From the NCBI GenBank assembly GCA_024635555.1, contig JAGXIO010000171.1:1-38740 (forward strand): a stretch of 38,740 nucleotides of DNA, written 5' to 3'. Shown in pieces: positions 2,586-13,265 of this stretch. A model generated the notes under the pieces. The model was not told the DNA's origin. It did not search any database and worked only from the letters and a program-made list of their open reading frames with translations. Positions within the stretch are counted from its first letter, which is position 1. Every line of letters begins with the position of its first letter. This stretch comes from Saccharicrinis sp. (GTDB lineage: Bacteria; Bacteroidota; Bacteroidia; Bacteroidales; Marinilabiliaceae). The position numbers were made by a program, and so were the translations under genes.

Positions 2586-3251
2586 TTAAAAATAAACCTC
2601 AGCATGTATACGCTCATTGGGTATTCCTTTATTTTCCAGAATATCGTAAGCATCATGTATCATGTTGCAATTTCCGCACAAATATACTTCAGAATCTGTA
2701 TCAATCTGTAATTCTTGCAAATAATTTGTCAATCTACCTATATAATTACCACTAGTATCCCGCGAGGAGCATAGGGTATATCGTAGTTTGTCGTATTCTT
2801 CTTTTTCGTAACCTTCGATATGCGAACGCACCCCATGTACAATTTTATAATCTAATGTTGGGTGTGATTTTACCATGCTATGAAAAGGGGATATACCTGT
2901 GCCAGTAGCAATAAAAAGATATTTCTTGTTTAATTTTTCGCCACCATTCAGCCCAAAATAACCAACAGGTTCTTCCACCACAACCGAATCACCCACCTTA
3001 AGCTTTTTGAGTACCGGGGTTATCAATCCATTTTGCACTTCCTTAACTAAAATCTCGATATACGGATCATTTACGGCACTATAAATAGAATATTCGCGCG
3101 TGTGTATTCCGTTCGGGGGCCCAACGCAAACATGCTGTCCGGCAGTAAATTCCAATCCGTTTTTTTCGAATTGAATAATAAATGTTGATTCAGTCAAATT
3201 CCTTATTTCTAAAATCTCATGCAAATTCATGCGTTTTCTGATAATATTCAT
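2586..3251 (-). CDS. ferredoxin/flavodoxin--NADP+ reductase-like flavoprotein
   Basis: A 221-residue FAD/NAD(P)H oxidoreductase of the ferredoxin-NADP+ reductase superfamily. The flavin-binding RxYS motif is REYS at 52-55 within the N-terminal barrel, the pyridine-nucleotide site begins with GTGISPF at 117-123, and the C-terminal CGNCNMIHDA (about 193-202) resembles the conserved CG(P/N)xxMxxD segment. It should pass electrons between NAD(P)H and a small carrier in the cytoplasm; the partner cannot be told. An alternative start is the ATG at 3228-3230 (residue 8), which would fit the family better. It is divergent from ppk, so the 109-bp gap at 3252-3360 probably carries both promoters. Confidence 0.8.
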   Translation of the reverse strand: MNIIRKRMNLHEILEIRNLTESTFIIQFEKNGLEFTAGQHVCVGPPNGIHTREYSIYSAVNDPYIEILVKEVQNGLITPVLKKLKVGDSVVVEEPVGYFGLNGGEKLNKKYLFIATGTGISPFHSMVKSHPTLDYKIVHGVRSHIEGYEKEEYDKLRYTLCSSRDTSGNYIGRLTNYLQELQIDTDSEVYLCGNCNMIHDAYDILENKGIPNERIHAEVYF

Positions 3252-3360
3252 TATATATTATTCTTTTATTTTCTACTTTTATACGATTGCTATTACAACC
3301 TTAAACGAATTGATTTGTTCAACCCGTTTTGGTGCATACAATCGCAATAAAAAAATTCCT

Positions 3361-5409
3361 ATGAGCGTAAAGAACTTCAGAAGCAAAGAGATTAGTTGGC
3401 TTTCGTTTAACGAAAGAGTATTACACGAGGCTATGCGTGATGACGTGCCCTTGATTGAACGGATAAAATTTTTAGGTATCTATTCCAACAACATGGACGA
3501 GTTTTTTCGTGTTCGCGTAGCGGTGCTTAAAAGAATAGTTCAGTTGGATAAAAATACCATCTTCGAGGGAGGATCTCCTCAGGAGATATTAAAAGGAGTA
3601 CATGAGTTGGTGCGTAAACAAGCATTGATGTTCGATCAGGCTTATCGTAAAGTTATTCAGGATTTGATAAAAGAGAATATTTATATCATCAACGAAAAGG
3701 ATCTTACCGAAGAACAAGGCGAGTTTGTAAAGCGTCATTTCCATAAAAGGGTTCGCGGAAAACTTATGCCCATCATTATTAACAATAGCCGCCCCTTGCC
3801 CGATTTGGCCGACGACGGTATTTATTTGGCCGTTTATTTAAAGCGAAATGGAAACAGCAGAATGCAGTATGCCTTGATAGAAATTCCATCGTCGCTGGAT
3901 CGCTTTGTTTTGTTGCCTTCAAAAGATGGTAAAAAATATGTTATGCTTTTAGATGATGTGATACGCTATGAGTTGGGCGACATATTTTATATGTTTAAAT
4001 TTGATGAAATTGGTGCCTATACCTTTAAACTCACTCGCGATGCGCAGCTCGATATCAATGAAGATATATCTGAGAGTTACGTTAAAAAGGTGTCGAAAGG
4101 TTTAGAGTTGCGAAAGGAAGCCGACCCCGTGCGCTTTGTGTACGACGAGTTAATGCCCGAGGCTTTGCTGAAACTCTTGCTAAAAAAACTTCACTATTCC
4201 TCAAACAGCTCCATTATTAAAGGAGGCAGATATCATAACTTTAAAGATTTTATCGATTTTCCGAAGATAGGGAGTAAAGAAATGAGCTACCCCTCATTGC
4301 CTTCGATAATTCACCGTGATATTGAGCCACATTCGTCTTTTTTTAAGATAATTAGTAAAAAAGATATACTGTTTCATTTTCCGTATCATTCCTTTCATTA
4401 TTTTATCGATTATCTCCGCGAAGCTTCTATCGACCCAATGGTGCGCGAAATTAAAATTACCATTTACCGGGTAGGGAAAAATGCCCCAGTGATAAAGGCC
4501 TTGATTAATGCTGCCCGTAACGGTAAAAAAGTGACGGCGGTGGTAGAGCTTCAAGCACGTTTTGACGAGAAAGCAAATATTAAATGGGCCAATCGTTTAC
4601 GAAATTCAGGGGTTAAAGTTGTTTTTGGTGTGCCCGGACTTAAAGTGCATGGCAAACTATGCCTTGTGGTGCGCAAGGAAAAAAACCAAATGAAAAATTA
4701 TGTGTGCGTGGGTACTGGTAATTTTAATGAAGACTCGGCAGTTGTGTTTGCTGATAGTTTGCTGTTTACCAAGCATGAGGGTATTGCAAATGAAGTGGTT
4801 GCTGTTTTTGAATTCTTTAATAAACATTATAATATTCCTTCGTTTGAACACCTGTTGGTTTCGCCGTTTATTTTACGCGAAAGTATAGAAGGCTTTGTTG
4901 ACCGTGAAATAAAAAATGCTAAAGAAGGCAAGGAAGCATATATCTATTTGAAAGTGAATAATTTGGTTGATTTTAACCTGATTTTTAAATTATATGATGC
5001 CCAAAGAGTAGGGGTTAAGGTAAGACTGAATGTAAGAGGCATGTTCTCGGTGTTCCCGGAGTTTGATAAACCAGAAAACGCTATCGAATCCATTGGTATT
5101 ATCGACAGATTTTTAGAGCATTCGCGCATATATGTCTTCTGCAACGGAGGCGATGAAAAAATGTATATTTCATCTGCCGATTGTATGACACGTAACCTAG
5201 ATAGACGCATAGAAGTAGCCTGCCCTATATATGATAAGAAAATAAAGCACGAGTTAAAGGTGATGTTGGAAATGCAAATGAAAGATAATTGCTCGGCACG
5301 CCTATTAAATAATGAGATGGATAATAAAATAAGAAAAATTGAAGGAGAAAAAGAGGAATTCCGGTCGCAATTGGAATTTTACAAGTGGCTAAATGAAGCA
5401 AGAGATTAA
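3361..5409 (+). CDS. ppk1: polyphosphate kinase 1
   Basis: PPK1 reversibly polymerises the gamma-phosphate of ATP into inorganic polyphosphate. Starting at the ATG at 3361 the protein has 682 residues, the usual family length, and begins with NFRSKEISWLSFNERVLHEA, the standard PPK1 N-terminus. The frame is open upstream to 3229, but that extension is hydrophobic and AT-rich and does not resemble the family. The autophosphorylated histidine is His430 in GLKVHGKLCLV, and the second conserved histidine is His587 in FLEHSRIYVF. Phospholipase-D-like motifs (GTGNFNEDSA, SSADCMTRNLDRR) are present. No ppx lies next to it; a toxin-antitoxin pair follows on the same strand. Confidence 0.95.
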   Translation: MSVKNFRSKEISWLSFNERVLHEAMRDDVPLIERIKFLGIYSNNMDEFFRVRVAVLKRIVQLDKNTIFEGGSPQEILKGVHELVRKQALMFDQAYRKVIQDLIKENIYIINEKDLTEEQGEFVKRHFHKRVRGKLMPIIINNSRPLPDLADDGIYLAVYLKRNGNSRMQYALIEIPSSLDRFVLLPSKDGKKYVMLLDDVIRYELGDIFYMFKFDEIGAYTFKLTRDAQLDINEDISESYVKKVSKGLELRKEADPVRFVYDELMPEALLKLLLKKLHYSSNSSIIKGGRYHNFKDFIDFPKIGSKEMSYPSLPSIIHRDIEPHSSFFKIISKKDILFHFPYHSFHYFIDYLREASIDPMVREIKITIYRVGKNAPVIKALINAARNGKKVTAVVELQARFDEKANIKWANRLRNSGVKVVFGVPGLKVHGKLCLVVRKEKNQMKNYVCVGTGNFNEDSAVVFADSLLFTKHEGIANEVVAVFEFFNKHYNIPSFEHLLVSPFILRESIEGFVDREIKNAKEGKEAYIYLKVNNLVDFNLIFKLYDAQRVGVKVRLNVRGMFSVFPEFDKPENAIESIGIIDRFLEHSRIYVFCNGGDEKMYISSADCMTRNLDRRIEVACPIYDKKIKHELKVMLEMQMKDNCSARLLNNEMDNKIRKIEGEKEEFRSQLEFYKWLNEARD

Positions 5410-5564: not shown

Positions 5565-5903
5565 GTGAGAGAAATAGACATTACAAAAGCTTGTCTTGAA
5601 TATATAGATAATCAAGACGAAAGAGTGTCGCTAAAATTCTTCCAACTCATTGAAGTTATTGGAAATGTAAAAGTCGTAAACGCAAACTTTCTGAAAAAGC
5701 TACAATCGACACAATTTTATGAATTACGAATTAGTGCGGGAAATAAATATCGAATTGTAATCTTTGCCATTGACCACCTGAATTTTGCTGAATGTACCAA
5801 AGCGGTGTGTCTTTGTGGATTTCAAAAGAAATCAACAAAAGATTATAAAAAAGCGATAAAACAAGCAGAAATATTATTAGAAGAGTATTTAAAAGAAAAG
5901 TAG
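5565..5903 (+). CDS. higB: HigB/RelE-superfamily toxin (Gp49-like, PF05973 type)
   Basis: A 112-residue basic protein with the pattern FLKKLQSTQFYELRIS..KYRIVIFAID...AVCLCGFQKKSTK, typical of phage-derived Gp49-like/HigB toxins, which cleave mRNA on the ribosome. The RIS..YRI and GFQKKS segments are the family hallmarks. The start is GTG at 5565. The gene order, toxin first and XRE-type antitoxin second with a 2-bp gap, is the HigBA arrangement. The AT-rich composition agrees with a mobile addiction module. Family assignment is good; the cleavage target is inference. Confidence 0.85.
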   Translation: MREIDITKACLEYIDNQDERVSLKFFQLIEVIGNVKVVNANFLKKLQSTQFYELRISAGNKYRIVIFAIDHLNFAECTKAVCLCGFQKKSTKDYKKAIKQAEILLEEYLKEK

Positions 5904-5905
5904 TT

Positions 5906-6190
5906 ATGGGAAAGTCTATAAACGCAAAAGAACTAATTGCTAAGCGATACGGAAAAGAAGGGACAGCAGAACGAGAAAAATTCCGAGAAGATGCTTTTTC
6001 CTATTATTTTGGAGAAATTATTAAAAATCGTAGAAAGGAATTACACATGAGTCAAGAAAATTTGGCTGAGAAGGTTGGTAAAAAACGACCATATATTTCG
6101 CGTATTGAAAACGGTGAAGATATTCGTTTGTCGAATTTTGCTTTGCTTGCCAATGCTCTGGGATTGTCAATTGAATTAAAAACTGAATAA
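5906..6190 (+). CDS. higA: XRE-family HTH antitoxin, HigA-like
   Basis: A 94-residue protein with a C-terminal helix-turn-helix of the Cro/CI type: IIKNRRKELHMSQENLAEKV followed by GKKRPYISRIENGEDIRLSN, about residues 38-77. It is expected to neutralise the toxin encoded 2 bp upstream and to repress the pair's own promoter. The N-terminal 35 residues (charged, helical) are likely the toxin-binding part. The immediate spacing and shared orientation make a bicistronic unit almost certain. Confidence 0.85.
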   Translation: MGKSINAKELIAKRYGKEGTAEREKFREDAFSYYFGEIIKNRRKELHMSQENLAEKVGKKRPYISRIENGEDIRLSNFALLANALGLSIELKTE

Positions 6191-7351: not shown

Positions 7352-7389
7352 CATTAGTTTTGGAAGCGATTGATTAACCTAAACTAATG
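7352..7389 (+). promoter_or_regulatory. inverted repeat overlapping the start codon of the TPR/HTH regulator
   Basis: CATTAGTTT (7352-7360) and AAACTAATG (7381-7389) are perfect 9-bp inverted repeats around a 20-bp spacer. The right arm ends with the ATG start codon at 7387-7389. In RNA this could pair and hide the start codon; in DNA it could be an operator for autoregulation. Confidence 0.5.
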
Positions 7390-9033
7390 AAGCACTACCT
7401 AGCTATTATATTGACTACCTTTATTCTTTTCTCTTGCACTAAAGGAAACCCTAAGCCTAGCGTAAACCTAGACCTGCTTGAGCGCTTGCAGGAAGCTGAG
7501 AATATCCGCTTTTACCGCCCGGAAGTTGTAGATACGATACTCACAAATATAGTCGATGCACTGCGAAAGGAAGACACTGATGAGCTTTGGGCTAAGTACT
7601 ATTTCCTAAAAGCGCATGTTGAATACGAAAGGGGTGACTATGAGCAGTTAGTGCATTATATAGATAGTGCTAAGTTACGAGGTCTGGATAATGATTCAGT
7701 TTATAACAAGAAAATAGTCCTGTTAGAGGCTCTGACTAAAGAGTCTTTAAAACTCTACGATGAGGCTTGGCAGCTATATAATTTTTGTAACAATGATATA
7801 TGTGATAATGGTTTAACTGACAATGAAAAGCTAAAAGCATATTTAGCACAAGCAAGAATAGCCAAAAGTATTAATTTGGACATTGAACCTTATTTATTTA
7901 AAGCAGATAAATTGGTGAAAGGTAGGAAAGAGGAAATTGACTTGGGGTTGTATTATTCAAACATGGCTTTCTTCTCCACGGGTAAGGAGCGTCTTCGATT
8001 TAGCATATTGTCAAATAATTACTATAGAAAAAATAATTTAAATTATCAACTAGTAAAATCACTGGATCTGATAGCGAATTCATTTATTAACCACAATATA
8101 GATTCTGCAATTTATTATCACAATGAAGCAAGCGTTGTTATTGAAGAACTCAACAAAGGCTTTATAGGACTGAAAAAAGAAGATTTGTTATATCATTTGT
8201 ACGTTGGTTCAAAGTTGCTTATAAAAAATGAAGAATATGAAAAATGCATAACCATTCTTGATTCATCATTATACCTTTCTGACATTCAAAAAAGTGATTT
8301 ATTTAAATACAGGTTTAAAATTCTAAAGTCTAAAGTTCTTTTTATTACAAAGCAGTATAAAGCCGCTAGAGTCTATGAAGAAAAAGCCTATGAGCATTAT
8401 CTGGACTATGATAAAAAAATAGCTCGGAATAAGATCATGTATATTAATGCACAAAATCATATCAATACGATAAAACAAGAGAATGAAATTCTTTGCCTAA
8501 AAGATAAAAGTACACGACAAAAGAATAGCCTTTACTTATTCTATAGTATAATAATATCAGTTGTATTAATCTTTTTAATCTACAATTCTAATAAACTGAA
8601 AAGGATGTTAGATAAATCTCATCAATGCTTACATAAAAAAGAGATTTCGTTGTTAGAATCGGAAGACATGCTAAAATGTATCTATTCTCATCTAAATGTA
8701 AAAACACTACCAGCAAAGACCATTGTCTCAAAAATAAGTCAGGAGTTAAATAAAACACAAAATATAAGTAGTTGGGATAACTTTAACGAGCGCTACAGAT
8801 ATCAATACCCCAAAGGTGAAAGGAATATCAGAGTTGCGTACCCAGATTTGAAAGCCGGGGATGTGCGTTATTTAATGTGTTGTCATTATGGACTTACTGA
8901 TTCAAAGATGGCAGATGTGTTTGGAATAAAGGAAACATCGGTTAGAAAACAACGCCAACGCATTAAAGAGCGTCTTAAATTAAATTCAGAAGACGATTTA
9001 CAGAACTTTATTTTGAAAATTTTATCAAAATAA
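7387..9033 (+). CDS. membrane-spanning TPR regulator with C-terminal HTH
   Basis: A 548-residue protein with a lipoprotein-type signal (lipobox around Cys17, FSCTKG), a long helical region of TPR-like repeats to about residue 375, one transmembrane helix at about 380-400 (YLFYSIIISVVLIFLIYNS), a short linker, and a cytoplasmic C-terminus with a LuxR/GerE-like helix-turn-helix at about 490-530 (YGLTDSKMADVFGIKETSVR, then KQRQRIKERL). This architecture is known in Bacteroidota: an extracytoplasmic TPR sensor joined through the membrane to a DNA-binding domain. It probably senses an envelope signal and binds DNA while membrane-tethered. The operator array directly downstream (9077-9123) is a natural target. 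Gene boundaries and domain order are clear; the signal is unknown. Confidence 0.8.
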   Translation: MKHYLAIILTTFILFSCTKGNPKPSVNLDLLERLQEAENIRFYRPEVVDTILTNIVDALRKEDTDELWAKYYFLKAHVEYERGDYEQLVHYIDSAKLRGLDNDSVYNKKIVLLEALTKESLKLYDEAWQLYNFCNNDICDNGLTDNEKLKAYLAQARIAKSINLDIEPYLFKADKLVKGRKEEIDLGLYYSNMAFFSTGKERLRFSILSNNYYRKNNLNYQLVKSLDLIANSFINHNIDSAIYYHNEASVVIEELNKGFIGLKKEDLLYHLYVGSKLLIKNEEYEKCITILDSSLYLSDIQKSDLFKYRFKILKSKVLFITKQYKAARVYEEKAYEHYLDYDKKIARNKIMYINAQNHINTIKQENEILCLKDKSTRQKNSLYLFYSIIISVVLIFLIYNSNKLKRMLDKSHQCLHKKEISLLESEDMLKCIYSHLNVKTLPAKTIVSKISQELNKTQNISSWDNFNERYRYQYPKGERNIRVAYPDLKAGDVRYLMCCHYGLTDSKMADVFGIKETSVRKQRQRIKERLKLNSEDDLQNFILKILSK

Positions 9034-9076
9034 AATCAATCGATATCTATCTGATTATTTGACTATTAATCTCTAT

Positions 9077-9123
9077 TGTCACGTAATGTCACAAGCTATA
9101 TTTGTGCTGTCACGTATTGTCAC
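9077..9123 (+). promoter_or_regulatory. operator array: four TGTCAC half-sites
   Basis: TGTCACGTAATGTCACA and TGTCACGTATTGTCACA are near-identical 17-bp copies (9077-9093 and 9108-9124). Each contains two TGTCAC half-sites, starting at 9077, 9087, 9108 and 9118. Start-to-start spacings are 10, 21 and 10 bp, so all four lie on one face of the helix. The array ends 11 bp upstream of the -33 element of the promoter at 9135-9164, a position typical of activator sites. It lies between the TPR/HTH regulator and the operon starting at 9195. Confidence 0.75.
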
Positions 9124-9134
9124 ATCCTTTTATT

Positions 9135-9164
9135 TTGTCCTCTTATTGAAAAACTTTATGTTCG
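9135..9164 (+). promoter_or_regulatory. promoter for the secreted-polypeptide operon
   Basis: A TTG at 9135-9137 and TATGTTCG at 9157-9164 are separated by 19 bp, matching the Bacteroidota -33/-7 arrangement (TTG, 19-21 bp, TAnnTTTG) with one mismatch in the -7 box. The expected transcript start is about 9170, some 25 nt before the ATG at 9195. Confidence 0.6.
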
Positions 9165-9194: not shown

Positions 9195-9431
9195 ATGAGA
9201 AAAGAAAGAGTTTTAAAATTAGCGTTATCAACCTGTGCAGTGTTGGCAATGCTAGTTACAAATATTTGCCACAGCCAGAACATGAATTTAAGTACAAATA
9301 CCACATTAAAAGATTTGATGCTGATGGAAAACTGCCAAACTGAGCTAGTAGATGATTATGACCCTAAAAAATGTCAGGTTACAACGGGTGACAGCCTAGT
9401 GGTTGTTATTAGGTCTACATATACTAATTAA
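9195..9431 (+). CDS. small secreted protein, first gene of the operon
   Basis: A 78-residue protein with a clear signal peptide (basic MRKER, hydrophobic core LALSTCAVLAMLVTNI, likely cleavage after CHS near residue 27). The mature part is about 50 residues with two Cys (MENCQ and KKCQV) that could form one disulfide. No family is recognised. It is the first gene after the operator array and promoter, and lies 11 bp before the outer-membrane exporter pseudogene. It could be the signal or effector polypeptide of the locus; this is inference from position only. Confidence 0.6.
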   Translation: MRKERVLKLALSTCAVLAMLVTNICHSQNMNLSTNTTLKDLMLMENCQTELVDDYDPKKCQVTTGDSLVVVIRSTYTN

Positions 9432-9442
9432 ACTATATTAAG

Positions 9443-10896
9443 GTGCGGAATTGCTTACTTTCAATCGTATTTCTTATTGCTTTTTGCCCAATGCTAACAG
9501 CTCAGGATATCCTGATCCTAAACCGGGCATTAGAACTTGCAGCTACACACAGTACAGACCTGAAACTATCAGCTCTAAGTTTGGAAAAGACCCAACAAAG
9601 CCTTAAAGTGCAAGAGACGGCTTTGAAGTCTGATTTTGACCTTAGTCTAACACCTTTTAGCTATTCTAACCAGTAAAGTATGATGATCGCCCTGGGGGTG
9701 ATGGTTGGTACAATGTGCAACAGACCACATCAAGCGGCAACTTCTCCATTAGTCAGCCAATATTACTCACTGATGCTACCCTTGGCTTATCCAATTACTT
9801 CAAGTGGCAAGATGCCAATGGCGATCAAAGCTTTTACAATAATCTGACGCTAAAAATAGATCAACCACTATTTTCACACAATCAGCAAAAAATAGCACTA
9901 AGAAAGGTAGAACGGGATGTGGAAAATGCTGAGATTAACTATGCCTTGCAAAAACTGAGTATGGAGCGGTCCATCACAAGTCAATTCTATAGTGTTTACC
10001 AGAAACAGATGCAATACCTTATTTACCAAGAGGAACTGGACAATCAACTTAAAAACCACAAGATAGTAGAGCAAAAGGTGAGGGCAGGCCTCATGCAACT
10101 GGAAGAACTCTATCAGTCGGAAGTCAACCTAATATCGGCAGAGAATACACTTGAAAATGCAATGGTCAGCTTAGATGATGCAAGGGATGATATCAAACTC
10201 CTACTAGGGCTGCCGTTTGACTATGATTTTTTTACCGTATTAAACATCAGCATAGATTCAGTACCTATAGATCGTGTACAGGCCATTAATCGCTCCTTAG
10301 ATGTTGCCCGTGAACTGCGCCAACGTGAAATAGATATAGAAATAGCCCAATTCAGTCTATTACAAACCATCGATAATAATTCGTTTAGTGGCAATCTATC
10401 CTTACAGATGGGCTTAAGTGGTCAAGGTGAAGATCCTACACAGGTATATAATAAGGCTACCAATAATACTGGCATTAGCCTTTCGTTAGAAGTGCCTATC
10501 TGGGATTGGGGAAAGCGGAAAGCGCGCATTCGTGCTTCGGAGATTAATCTTGAGAGGCAGGAACTCTATTTAGCTGACTATAAAAATGAGATCGTGCTAA
10601 CGATAAGAAAACTCCACCGTAGCCTAATTAGTTTGTATCACCAATCCCAAAAAGCAGAAAAAAATGTGCGTAATGCACAATTAACTTATGATACCAACTT
10701 AGAGCGTTTTAAGATGGGAAAGATTTCAGGTATGGATCTGCAGCATTTTCAGAATCAGCTTTCAGCAAAAAAAATGGCACATACCAATGCTATTATCAAT
10801 TATAAGTTGGAGCTACTGAATCTTAAAATACAGACTTTATACGATTGGGAAGCGCAGGAGGAGTTTTTACCCGAAGGATTATTCGAAACAAATTAA
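9443..10896 (+). pseudogene. TolC-family outer membrane efflux protein, frameshifted
   Basis: Two consecutive frames together make a normal-sized TolC-like protein of about 484 residues. The first part (9443-9676, GTG start) carries a signal peptide ending at LTAQ and the typical opening LNRALELAATHSTDLKLSAL. It stops at 9674-9676. The second part continues in the -1 frame through about 10896 with the helical hairpin region and the closing segment LRKGKISGMDLQ-like (RFKMGKISGMDLQHF). Across the junction the second frame is open from 9670 and reads PVKYDDRPGGDGWYN, so the two parts join cleanly if one C is restored in the CC at 9670-9671. The second part also has a GTG at 9715 that could start a truncated, signal-less product. 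A working version would form the outer membrane channel of a tripartite exporter; no inner membrane partner is encoded nearby. A sequencing error is the main alternative. Confidence 0.8.
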
Positions 10897-10899
10897 TGT

Positions 10900-11289
10900 A
10901 TGGAAAACACAATAAAATATCATCTTATTATACTTTTAGCTTTGTTTGTTTCCTGCAGCAACGGTACTCAAACCAAATCCCAAACTACAAGTATAATACT
11001 TTCCGATTCAGAGATTGATTTAGGAAAAGTTAAGATAAATACCTTGAAAGAGAGTGAATTTACTATCACCAACGTGGGGAATGTGCACCTTACCATCTAC
11101 CAAATGGCTACCTCTTGTGGCTGTACCGAGGTGGAATGGACACAAAAACCCATAAAACCCAGCAAATCGACAACAATAAAACTCAAATACTACGATAAAT
11201 ACCCAGGTTTTTTTCATAAAACCATTACTATTTACGCAAATACTGATAAGCCTGTGGAGGTAAAAATAAAAGGAGAATTAATAGAGTAA
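10900..11289 (+). CDS. DUF1573 lipoprotein
   Basis: A 129-residue protein with a lipoprotein signal (LALFVSC, lipidated Cys19) and one DUF1573 domain of immunoglobulin-like fold. The family hallmark TSCGCTEVEW is at 71-80, followed by KPSKSTTIKLKYY and the terminal strands IYANTDKPVEVKIKGEL. Such proteins are common next to secreted-peptide and beta-propeller genes in Bacteroidota; their role is unclear. The ATG lies 3 bp after the TolC-like stop codon, so it was translated with the exporter. Confidence 0.85.
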   Translation: MENTIKYHLIILLALFVSCSNGTQTKSQTTSIILSDSEIDLGKVKINTLKESEFTITNVGNVHLTIYQMATSCGCTEVEWTQKPIKPSKSTTIKLKYYDKYPGFFHKTITIYANTDKPVEVKIKGELIE

Positions 11290-11510: not shown

Positions 11511-11590
11511 TTAAATTGAATTGAAATTATAAACCAACAATGATGAATAGGTTTGATATATTACCTACATCATTGCTAATATTTTTAAAA

Positions 11591-12028
11591 ATGAAAAAAT
11601 CAATGTTAACTGCAATTGTAGTAGCTATTGTTGCTATTGTCAATTTGAATGTTTATTTGGATGATGCGCAAGCTGGATGGGTATGGGTAAGAACTCCAAC
11701 GCCTTGTATTGTTATGGATCTTAATACTGGCTTTGAATATTTTGACTGTGCACTATGGAGCTCTTTAGGTGGTAGTTCTGGTGGTAGTGGTAGTTCTGGT
11801 GGTAGTGGTAGTTCTAGCAATGCTGAAAGCACAGACGAAGATGATGGAATTGAGTCCATAGATGAAACATGCTGGTATGAGCAAGGAACTGGTTATTGGA
11901 ATTCTAAACCATTTGGAGATGAAAATTGGTCAAATATACAGGAGTTTGAAACGGTAGCGGGAATAACAACCACGTGTTCTGTGGGTGGTAGTACATATTT
12001 TACTTGTGAAGAATCAGACTGTGAATAG
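11591..12028 (+). CDS. NVEAL-like secreted Cys-containing polypeptide with Gly/Ser linker
   Basis: The frame is open from an ATG at 11540, but the ATG at 11591 gives the typical start MKKSMLTAIVVAIVAIVNLNVYLDD..., 145 residues. The segment NLNVYLDDAQAGW is close to the signature of NVEAL-family leader regions of Bacteroidota small exported proteins. The mature part has six Cys (PTPC, FDC, ETC, TTC, FTC, SDC), an acidic stretch, and a Gly/Ser linker (about residues 60-77) encoded by 18-bp tandem repeats. Six Cys would allow three disulfides. NVEAL-type genes in the phylum commonly sit next to 6-bladed beta-propeller genes, as here. The function of the family is not established. Family call is moderate, coding is strong. 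Confidence 0.65.
   Translation: MKKSMLTAIVVAIVAIVNLNVYLDDAQAGWVWVRTPTPCIVMDLNTGFEYFDCALWSSLGGSSGGSGSSGGSGSSSNAESTDEDDGIESIDETCWYEQGTGYWNSKPFGDENWSNIQEFETVAGITTTCSVGGSTYFTCEESDCE
11768..11815 (+). repeat. 18-bp in-frame tandem repeat in the NVEAL-like gene
   Basis: GGTGGTAGTGGTAGTTCT occurs twice in perfect tandem (11780-11797, 11798-11815), preceded by a 12-bp shortened unit (11768-11779). Each unit encodes GGSGSS, so unit gain or loss would change linker length without breaking the frame. Confidence 0.85.
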
Positions 12029-13265
12029 GATTATTAAAATAATATGGTATAGAGCTATCTGCTCTATACCATTATTTAAACACAATTCAATAGCACTAAT
12101 ATTAGGTATTGTCTTTTGTTTATACAGCTGTGGAGAGAAAGGAACAAATAAGGAAAATTTAGTTTCAATCAAAATTAATACACCATTTAATCAGCTATTA
12201 AACGGTCAAAGTAGGATTGATTATACCGATTCTGTGTATCGTTGCATAGCTTTAGAAACAAATGATCAATGTTATTTGGGGAAAGTGAAAAAAATGAAAG
12301 TACAAGGAGATAGAATCTTTTTACTAGATGTTACATCAAAAGCATTGCTTTGTTTTGATATGGAGGGAAAGTATTTATTTAAAATCAGTGCGATAGATAA
12401 AGGTCCTGGTGAATATTTAAATATTAATGACTTTGATGTAGGTGATACTAGAATTGTATTACTCGACATTAATGGCTTTAAACTATTAATGTATGACATA
12501 AGTGGTAATTTTATCAAAGAAAAGAAACTGCGCCAAACAGCTCTACGTGCTTTATGTATTCATAACCAAGAGATATACACTTATACCGTATCTACTCCAC
12601 GGCAAGATGAAACGATGAAGAAGAATTGGATAGTTGTTTATAATGATAATTTTAAGGCGATAAAAAAAATGGAAGTGCCAGAACTTAGTCCATTATCAAG
12701 GCATACAAGCATTTCTGATTATTTCTTTACAATGAATCATCGTTTGTTTTTTTGCAAAAGCTATGAGCAAACTATCTTTGAAATAGAAGAGAAACAGCTA
12801 AAGCCCTACCTTGGGTTAAACTTCCTAAGGATATCCAAGGAAATAGATCGTCTTTCGCAGCTACTAAAAGACCCTCAAGCTGTGTTTTGTACAGGCAGGA
12901 TAAATGCTGCTAATGATAGTTTACTATTTATGCAGTTTTGTAATAAAGGGAAGCGCTATGAGTTGGTGTATAATGATAATCAAAAGAAAATGTATGTCAA
13001 TGGTATTGAATCTGCCTATAGCTATACTAAAGGCCAAACCAATGAGATGATGTTTATGACTTTAAGTGATATTAGATGCAGTGCTAACGATAGATTATAT
13101 ACACTCTGCGAAGTTGCACAAGTTAAAAGCAAAGCTAACATGATAAGAGCTATGGGAGATAAAGCAATTAAAGATGAAGTTATAAATACACTGATAGACT
13201 CATCTACTAATTTAGATGAGCTGCAAAACCCCGTGGTGTTTTGTAATACTTATTACGAAAAATAA
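12021..13265 (+). CDS. 6-bladed beta-propeller lipoprotein
   Basis: About 414 residues from a GTG at 12021 that overlaps the previous gene's stop codon (12026-12028), suggesting translational coupling; an ATG at 11985 in the same frame would overlap more. A lipoprotein signal (IALILGIVFCLYSCGEKG) follows a basic/hydrophobic lead of about 25 residues. The pattern of CIALETNDQCYLGKVKKMKV..RIFLLD, LLCFDMEGKYLFKIS..GPGEY and LLMYDISGNFIKEKKL is that of the Bacteroidota 6-bladed beta-propeller family (PF17170/BF4221-like). It is probably an envelope-anchored binding protein. The propeller domain occupies most of the mature protein. Partner identity is unknown. Confidence 0.75.
   Translation: MNRIIKIIWYRAICSIPLFKHNSIALILGIVFCLYSCGEKGTNKENLVSIKINTPFNQLLNGQSRIDYTDSVYRCIALETNDQCYLGKVKKMKVQGDRIFLLDVTSKALLCFDMEGKYLFKISAIDKGPGEYLNINDFDVGDTRIVLLDINGFKLLMYDISGNFIKEKKLRQTALRALCIHNQEIYTYTVSTPRQDETMKKNWIVVYNDNFKAIKKMEVPELSPLSRHTSISDYFFTMNHRLFFCKSYEQTIFEIEEKQLKPYLGLNFLRISKEIDRLSQLLKDPQAVFCTGRINAANDSLLFMQFCNKGKRYELVYNDNQKKMYVNGIESAYSYTKGQTNEMMFMTLSDIRCSANDRLYTLCEVAQVKSKANMIRAMGDKAIKDEVINTLIDSSTNLDELQNPVVFCNTYYEK
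12046..12070 (+). other. perfect 9-bp hairpin just after the NVEAL-like stop codon
   Basis: GGTATAGAG (12046-12054) and CTCTATACC (12062-12070) pair perfectly around a 7-nt loop. It lies 18 bp beyond the stop codon of the upstream polypeptide and inside the first codons of the propeller gene. It is followed by ATTATTTAA, a weak U-rich stretch, so partial termination or mRNA stabilisation is possible. Confidence 0.55.

Follow-up and report, generated by a model that had tools for sequence, protein, structure and literature searches.

The locus raises the question of which protein, if any, recognizes four identical hexamers placed in front of a gene for a small secreted-type polypeptide, and of whether their layout recurs beside other regulators of the kind encoded immediately upstream. 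On the basis of sequence comparison, the array is likely to be an activator operator of the adjacent membrane-anchored TPR-HTH protein. Positions refer to the window, that is, the whole 38,740-nucleotide stretch of DNA that was analysed.

The array and its surroundings

The four TGTCAC half-sites reported in the preliminary description are all exact matches on the forward strand, at 9077–9082, 9087–9092, 9108–9113 and 9118–9123, with spacings of 10, 21 and 10 bp. The features of the region are as follows.

7387–9033, forward strand: membrane-tethered TPR-HTH regulator of 548 amino acids, assigned by its orthologue and by a family profile (A2) that includes it as a row
9076–9104, forward strand: TTG-N18-TATATTTG, a second promoter-like element of uncertain role that overlaps the distal pair
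9077–9092, forward strand: predicted distal operator pair TGTCACGTAATGTCAC, a duplicate lying 31 bp upstream of the proximal pair
9108–9123, forward strand: predicted proximal operator pair TGTCACGTATTGTCAC, whose second TGTCA ends 34 nt before the -7 box
9135–9137, forward strand: TTG, -33 element of the proposed activated promoter, 11 nt past the end of TGTCAC and 12 nt past that of TGTCA
9157–9164, forward strand: TATGTTCG, -7 element, one mismatch to TAnnTTTG, placed N19 after the TTG at 9135–9137
9195–9431, forward strand: small secreted-type polypeptide of 78 amino acids, first gene of the putative target operon
9443–9676, forward strand: N-terminal part of a TolC-like outer-membrane factor gene, its frame broken before 9715
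9715–10896, forward strand: remainder of the TolC-like gene (Pfam OEP)
10900–11289, forward strand: DUF1573 protein, presumed to belong to the same operon
11540–12028, forward strand: small Gly/Ser-rich protein of secreted type, separated by 250 bp from the preceding gene and possibly with its own promoter
11985–13265, forward strand: 6-bladed beta-propeller protein (DUF5128)

The split of the TolC-like gene over two frames is either a real frameshift or an assembly error. A CarboxypepD_reg protein is also encoded downstream, after the propeller gene. No homologue of the 78-aa peptide was found in the 99 other genomes searched (100 including its own). Elsewhere in the window, two small genes at 5565–6190 (a 112-aa protein and a 94-aa HTH_3 protein) resemble a toxin-antitoxin pair, and a polyphosphate kinase-like gene, named by eye, occupies 3229–5409.

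The regulator shows an N-terminal lipobox (LFSC), a TPR-like region, a single internal transmembrane-like segment (residues 381–399) and a C-terminal LuxR/GerE-type HTH. This is the arrangement that defines the membrane TPR-HTH (A2) family, namely an N-terminal signal, a TPR region, one internal transmembrane segment and a C-terminal LuxR-type HTH. Its match to the A2 profile (E 8.9e-115) is that of a protein which is itself a row of the profile, and it gave no match to Pfam or, at E 0.01, to NCBIfam. The internal hydrophobic segment is present in all 33 aligned A2 members, 146–211 residues from the C end, and a TPR model detects 28 of these 33 and GerE nine, the window member being in neither group. 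The A2 profile, which TPR proteins lacking an HTH match as well, has matches in 187 of 198 sampled genomes of the class; a plasmid collection yielded no homologue of the regulator.

The two 17-bp copies of the array differ by a single base, in accordance with the near-identity described before, and represent the core of a 31-bp tandem duplication (9077–9106 and 9108–9137, 77% over 30). The 21-bp gap is therefore a consequence of one duplication, and of the helical phasing put forward at first the 10/21/10 spacing stands but the independent weight of that gap does not. This four-site state was observed in this genome only. When the 161-bp intergenic region was subjected to 4000 dinucleotide shuffles, some hexamer was repeated at 10 bp in 210 of them; a TGTCAC pair appeared in none, and neither did a hexamer forming two distinct 10-bp pairs. 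Across the 5.3-Mb genome the exact pair is present twice, both times within this array. A chance origin, which had already been judged unlikely, is thus excluded. With one mismatch allowed, the pair was seen at six places, three of them at this locus, versus six for the reversed control, so that no dispersed regulon is visible and this candidate was rejected, the exact pairs being confined to the array. One single-mismatch match, TGTCACCCGTTGTAAC, lies at 9378–9393 on the reverse strand, inside the 78-aa peptide gene.

The array had been placed 11 bp before a TTG-N19-TATGTTCG promoter, and that distance is confirmed; the proposal is complicated, however, by the alternative promoter (TTG at 9076–9078, TATATTTG at 9097–9104), which overlaps the first pair and whose -7 element is a better match than TATGTTCG. 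The -7/-33 consensus used here is that cited in the available part of PMC7366714. Together with the gene content, the promoter type suggests that the host is a member of the Bacteroidota.

The repeat beside related regulators

An orthologue of the regulator was found at locus L102, in a genome of another family, with 34% identity over the full length (E 3e-78). Only this genome and the window's own had a match at E 1e-12 among 393 genomes of the order. At E 0.001, 59 of 100 relatives had regulator matches, none better than 5e-9 outside the own genome. At 1e-15, no further orthologue appeared in 395 genomes of the phylum, in three of the family of L102 or in a second draw of 395 genomes of the order, which was searched with a two-row profile; these draws overlap.

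Between the L102 regulator and a gene for an 89-aa secreted-type peptide lies TTTTGTCCCGTTTTGTCCCG, a 10-bp direct repeat of the form TGTCCC-N4-TGTCCC. It is followed at 34 nt by the -7 box CAGCTTTG, the same distance as for the proximal pair of the window, and 72 nt separate operator and start codon in both loci. L102 carries a single pair, in the proximal register. Its intergenic region contains TTTTGTCCCG twice in tandem, and the half-site is changed in the same way in both copies with respect to the window, as would be expected of a bound site. The preliminary description had expected TGTCAC pairs beside homologues of the regulator and had taken their absence as refutation; no such refutation came from the sole orthologue found, where the TGTC repeat is kept at the same place, although as TGTCCC, the exact TGTCAC not being retained. 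A paralogous locus in the window's own genome, L166, shows TGTCACGTTTTTGTCACG with a -7-like GATATTTG at 33 nt, before a gene for a 75-aa secreted-type repeat peptide.

For a wider comparison, distant TPR-HTH regulators were gathered by protein similarity only (pooled n = 141, counting two fragments of longer Reg_prop genes, L082 and L089, and some partial genes). The sets comprised L081–L130 (set 1), L133–L161 (set 2), L162–L200 (set 3), L218–L245 minus five loci repeating set-1 genes (set 4) and L286–L345 (set 5). The window and L102 supplied the TGTC core, and the repeats of L091, L085 and L094 had already been viewed before set 1 was scored; a lag of 11 was added with set 1 and one of 12 after set 2.

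In set 1, TGTCMC pairs with up to two mismatches were present in 15 of 67 regulator-adjacent intergenic regions versus 9 of 196 others, and exact pairs in 4/67 versus 0/196. Enumeration of all 4-mers put GGAC and GACA at 11 bp on top, the reverse complements of GTCC and TGTC (uncorrected p 0.001, 876 tests), and that of 5- and 6-mers ACTAT(A) at 11 bp, mostly from related loci. In regulator-adjacent regions, TGTC repeats at lags of 10, 11 and 12 numbered 1, 2 and 8 in set 2 (other orders) against 8 at all other lags from 6 to 25; 1, 11 and 3 against 6 in set 3 (mostly other orders); and 0, 5 and 0 against 4 in set 4 (same order). For the control, 15 Reg_prop-HTH proteins whose HTH is similar, the counts were 0, 0 and 1 against 3, and TGTCM at lags 10–12 occurred once in 26 regions.

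Thirty of the 32 exact TGTCM repeats of the pooled regulators are directed at the neighbour gene, 27 to its start and three to its end, and the remaining two at the end of the regulator, with none at its start. One of the three end-directed repeats (L166) faces a probably spurious ORF, and the peptide gene starts 69 nt past it. Exact TGTC(A/C) direct repeats of 10–12 bp were found in 26 of 152 neighbour upstream regions, compared with 2/152 on the reverse strand, 0/123 upstream of the regulators themselves, 2/289 for other genes (p 4e-11 for neighbours versus other genes) and a shuffle mean of 0.2. The operator with one mismatch is less specific when taken alone (neighbours 44/152, reverse strand 12, own upstream 5, other genes 13/289, shuffle 8.3); combined with a -7 box at 33–35 nt it gives 29 neighbours, 2 on the reverse strand, 1 own upstream, 0 other genes and 0.35 in shuffles.

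After an exact repeat, the -7 box (TAnnTTTG, up to one mismatch) was located at 34 nt in 18 instances and at any other offset in four at most, a rule first read off the pooled sets and then counted in those same sets. The register is kept whatever the spacing of the repeat, as an activator touching the polymerase would give. In 26 aligned family promoters, 10 of the 17 TTGs counted lie 11–12 nt after TGTCM, and the flanks of the core are little conserved except for a T-rich stretch before the second TGTC. As in this operator class, both window pairs are direct repeats with a spacing in the range of 10–12 bp that lie in the upstream region of the neighbour and point in its direction; the box at 33–35 nt after the second half-site accompanies the proximal pair (TATGTTCG at 34 nt, with one mismatch) and not the distal one.

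Judged by sequence, the window array is most likely an instance, here with a duplicated pair, of an operator layout found again next to some regulators of this class, other families and orders included. The early proposal that the upstream TPR/HTH protein is the candidate binder at an activator site gains support from this comparison, through the repeat at L102 and the forward repeats at 34 nt in part of the family. At four loci from genomes outside the window's order (L151, L160, L161 and L169), 12-bp TGTCCAC repeats precede a conserved CRP-like regulator gene that adjoins the TPR-HTH gene.

Other half-sites and the adjoining genes

The TGTC half-site is unevenly distributed. About one in six neighbour upstream regions carried the operator in the early sets, and the last held-out set (60 loci, 64 regulators) was lower, with an exact repeat in 1/65 and operator plus box in 4/65; its controls were 0 on the reverse strand, 0/55 own upstreams, 1/82 other genes (p 0.12 against operator plus box) and a shuffle mean of 0.05. 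Family-wide use of TGTC was rejected on these held-out counts, and the notion of a target for the whole regulator class is narrowed to a similar operator next to some of the relatives sampled. The operator label requires 20 changes on the HTH tree (29 when shuffled), at least 7 of them forced by well-supported branches, and is missing from several clades, the tree having few columns and many unresolved forks; the label was given per locus, and the second ORF of L091 is therefore also labelled. This clade-dependent prevalence indicates that TGTC is one specificity within a larger pattern.

That larger pattern was examined with exact -7 boxes as anchors, TGTC sites being left out and 7-mers with at least 6/7 identities being counted as repeats; lag and position had been fixed beforehand on the TGTC sites, in the identical loci. 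Beside regulators, 15 of 95 anchors had an 11-bp repeat whose second copy lay about 34 nt upstream, compared with 1–4/95 at nine other spacings (p 3e-9), 2/107 for other genes (p 3e-4) and 3/89 for own upstreams. The half-site types include TTGTACC, TTGTAG, TATAG and TTGCC. A second operator-like class, TATAG/ACTATA repeats at 11 bp, was noticed beside the TPR-HTH genes of L086, L092, L098 and L114, of which L086 and L092, as near copies of each other, do not count as independent. At L088, the 3' side of the regulator bears 21/42-bp tandem repeats of alternating type, AGTGCCGGATGC(T/C)CGCTAACG.

A search that started from the DNA, with TTGTCC-N5-TTGTCC, detected the pattern in 79 of 198 genomes; matches of the reversed control were of the same order (not totalled). 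Of 30 loci obtained in this way, 22 lie inside ORFs and three (L259, L273 and L275) have a -7 box at 34 nt with up to one mismatch. Two of these three adjoin a TPR-HTH gene; L259 is the L091 site, so only L273 is new. Weak profile matches at L265 and L271 overlap the pattern itself.

Among the 34 operator-plus-box targets listed, 22 start with a signal-type segment, as judged by eye, and these comprise glycosidase-like, repeat and surface proteins and small peptides. The others include four CRP-like regulators and one superoxide dismutase-like protein, and three are without a convincing ORF.

The window regulator and that of L102 are sisters in the HTH tree (support 98, starred) and join the starred group L085, L126, L166, L084 and L083 at a support of 86, unstarred. 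In six of the seven loci of this clade, a gene for a small secreted-type peptide adjoins the regulator. The heuristic used for small peptides is crude and overlooked the window's own peptide and that of L126, both added by eye. Alone it gives 4/7 in the clade versus 12/134 elsewhere (p 0.003); with the two additions the comparison becomes 6/7 versus 12/134, which is biased, as the other 134 were judged by the heuristic alone. Peptide sensing by the regulators of this clade is possible.

Tandem-repeat peptides occur in two clade loci, one in the own genome and one in the same genus. The former (L166:4589–4816, contig C219) is the 75-aa peptide, with tandem REDPIVIQQGKMF-like repeats, encoded after the TPR-HTH gene with a TGTCACG operator; the latter (L126) is an 81-aa secreted-type peptide with LPTDIDEDDPII repeats, divergent from its regulator at 3490–5094. 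The small secreted-type peptides beside the TPR-HTH genes of L084 (9422–9637) and L085 (2499–2702) have a common DEEDPV core and a common hydrophobic C-terminus (W..T..G[FL]-like). The peptides of L166, L126, L085 and L084 contain an E-D-P or D-D-P core, which those of the window and L102 lack. The operator-like repeats of L126, L085 and L084 are only degenerate.

Proposed mode of action and related systems

From the sequence and geometry at the locus, the conservation in L102 and the position and orientation seen in the family, binding, activation, a signal and a dimer may be proposed as follows. The regulator would be anchored in the inner membrane by its lipid or transmembrane segment, with the TPR region in the periplasm and the LuxR-type HTH in the cytoplasm. 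A signal in the periplasm would lead the HTH domains, probably dimeric, to bind a direct repeat of two TGTC(A/C)C half-sites separated by one turn of the helix. At the proximal pair (9108–9123), whose second half-site lies 11 bp before the -33 TTG and whose TGTCA ends 34 nt before the -7 box, the regulator would be placed beside RNA polymerase and activate the secreted-polypeptide operon from 9195. The distal pair (9077–9092), three turns upstream on the same face, might add a second dimer and cooperativity.

The array could instead be read as a repressor site, binding to which would block the TTG-N18-TATATTTG promoter overlapped by the distal pair (9076–9104). The location of TATATTTG, a full match to the -7 consensus, between the two pairs speaks for such a role, but in the family the pairs precede the -33 position by one favoured distance and the single pair of L102 is in the proximal register, which makes repression improbable.

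The binding protein might be another regulator with direct-repeat sites, such as an OmpR/PhoB-type response regulator, with the TPR-HTH gene as a bystander. Pho-box and OmpR-family sites consist of TGTCA units directly repeated at roughly one helical turn, close to the promoter, and the TGTCAC repeat at 10–11 bp resembles the Pho box, with its TGTCA repeats 11 bp apart; a polyphosphate kinase-like gene is, moreover, encoded in the window. The repeats described here differ in being found beside TPR-HTH genes, before whose neighbours they are enriched in the sampled loci (26/152, against the 2/289 of other genes); the exact pair exists nowhere else in the genome, and the half-sites vary between regulators, unlike those of a global regulator. 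We regard this alternative as quite improbable.

That the array is a non-functional tandem repeat or a mobile-element array is scarcely credible in view of the position and orientation beside regulators in several orders and the conservation in the diverged orthologue L102, even though it was born of a 31-bp duplication and a collection of 84,980 species contains 43 stretches with an exact four-site TGTCAC array (inner gap 14–16), of which 38 span 46 bp (plain 10-bp register), the ORFs around the 18 listed being of many kinds. Compared with these 43 loci, of up to 8 kb each, eight window proteins gave one weak partial TolC match (L075) and none for the regulator; the exact four-site array was rejected as a marker on this ground. 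The TGTCAC motif alone is not diagnostic, whereas its position is. These exact TGTCAC decamer arrays (L038–L080) come from several phyla, a number of them from rumen Bacteroidales and Lachnospiraceae.

Activation by the adjacent regulator may form part of a wider scheme, which we consider doubtful, in which the membrane TPR-HTH activators of the phylum are a family of one-component switches with a common operator geometry (a half-site spacing of 11 bp, or less often 10 or 12 bp, and 34 nt to the -7 box) and diversified half-sites, and in which the activated gene of the window's clade encodes a short, in some cases tandemly repeated, secreted peptide that is sensed by the periplasmic TPR region. 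If true, the diversified half-sites would keep many paralogues insulated in one cell, and the circuit would be one of RNPP-like peptide signalling, but across the inner membrane. RNPP sensors (Rap, NprR, PlcR and PrgX) have a TPR sensor, in some cases an HTH, and an adjoining gene for a small secreted peptide. NprR and Rap chains are among the 60 matches shown of a structure search, over the TPR region. The peptide link observed here is one of adjacency, in 6/7 of the clade. In the available part of the literature, RNPP sensors are described from Gram-positives as cytoplasmic proteins that respond to re-imported peptides, whereas the signal or lipobox and internal transmembrane segment of the regulators studied here would place the TPR outside the cytoplasm. 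The association with peptide genes is a testable lead to peptide signalling in the phylum.

Membrane TPR-HTH regulators are common, yet the literature found, as far as available, gives no binding site for them and a different layout for SusR-like sites; none of the papers that the searches returned was found to describe a 10–12 bp operator for such regulators. With the rule outlined above (neighbour gene, forward orientation, 11-bp direct repeat, 34 nt before the -7 box), some regulator-target pairs become predictable from sequence. According to the available part of PMC2954219, BT_3442 is a TPR protein of several domains whose gene cluster includes MACPF genes, and no DNA target is given there. 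The model of its family (NF053779) is matched at E 0.001 or better by 26 of the 33 aligned relatives; the window protein differs in matching over the HTH only (E 1e-4), under the cut-off. SusR and SusR-like regulators of Bacteroides (NF058541) are likewise membrane regulators with a periplasmic sensor and a C-terminal cytoplasmic HTH that activate operons, according to the available part of PMC3878776. In their predicted motifs, the centres of the direct repeats lie 67 or 77 bp apart (Ravcheev 2013, PMC3878776, in the part available), in contrast with the 10–12 bp of the family repeats and the 10, 21 and 10 bp of the window, which has no two-site operator of the SusR type. The window protein does not match NF058541 at E 0.01, and 8 of the 33 aligned relatives do match this model.
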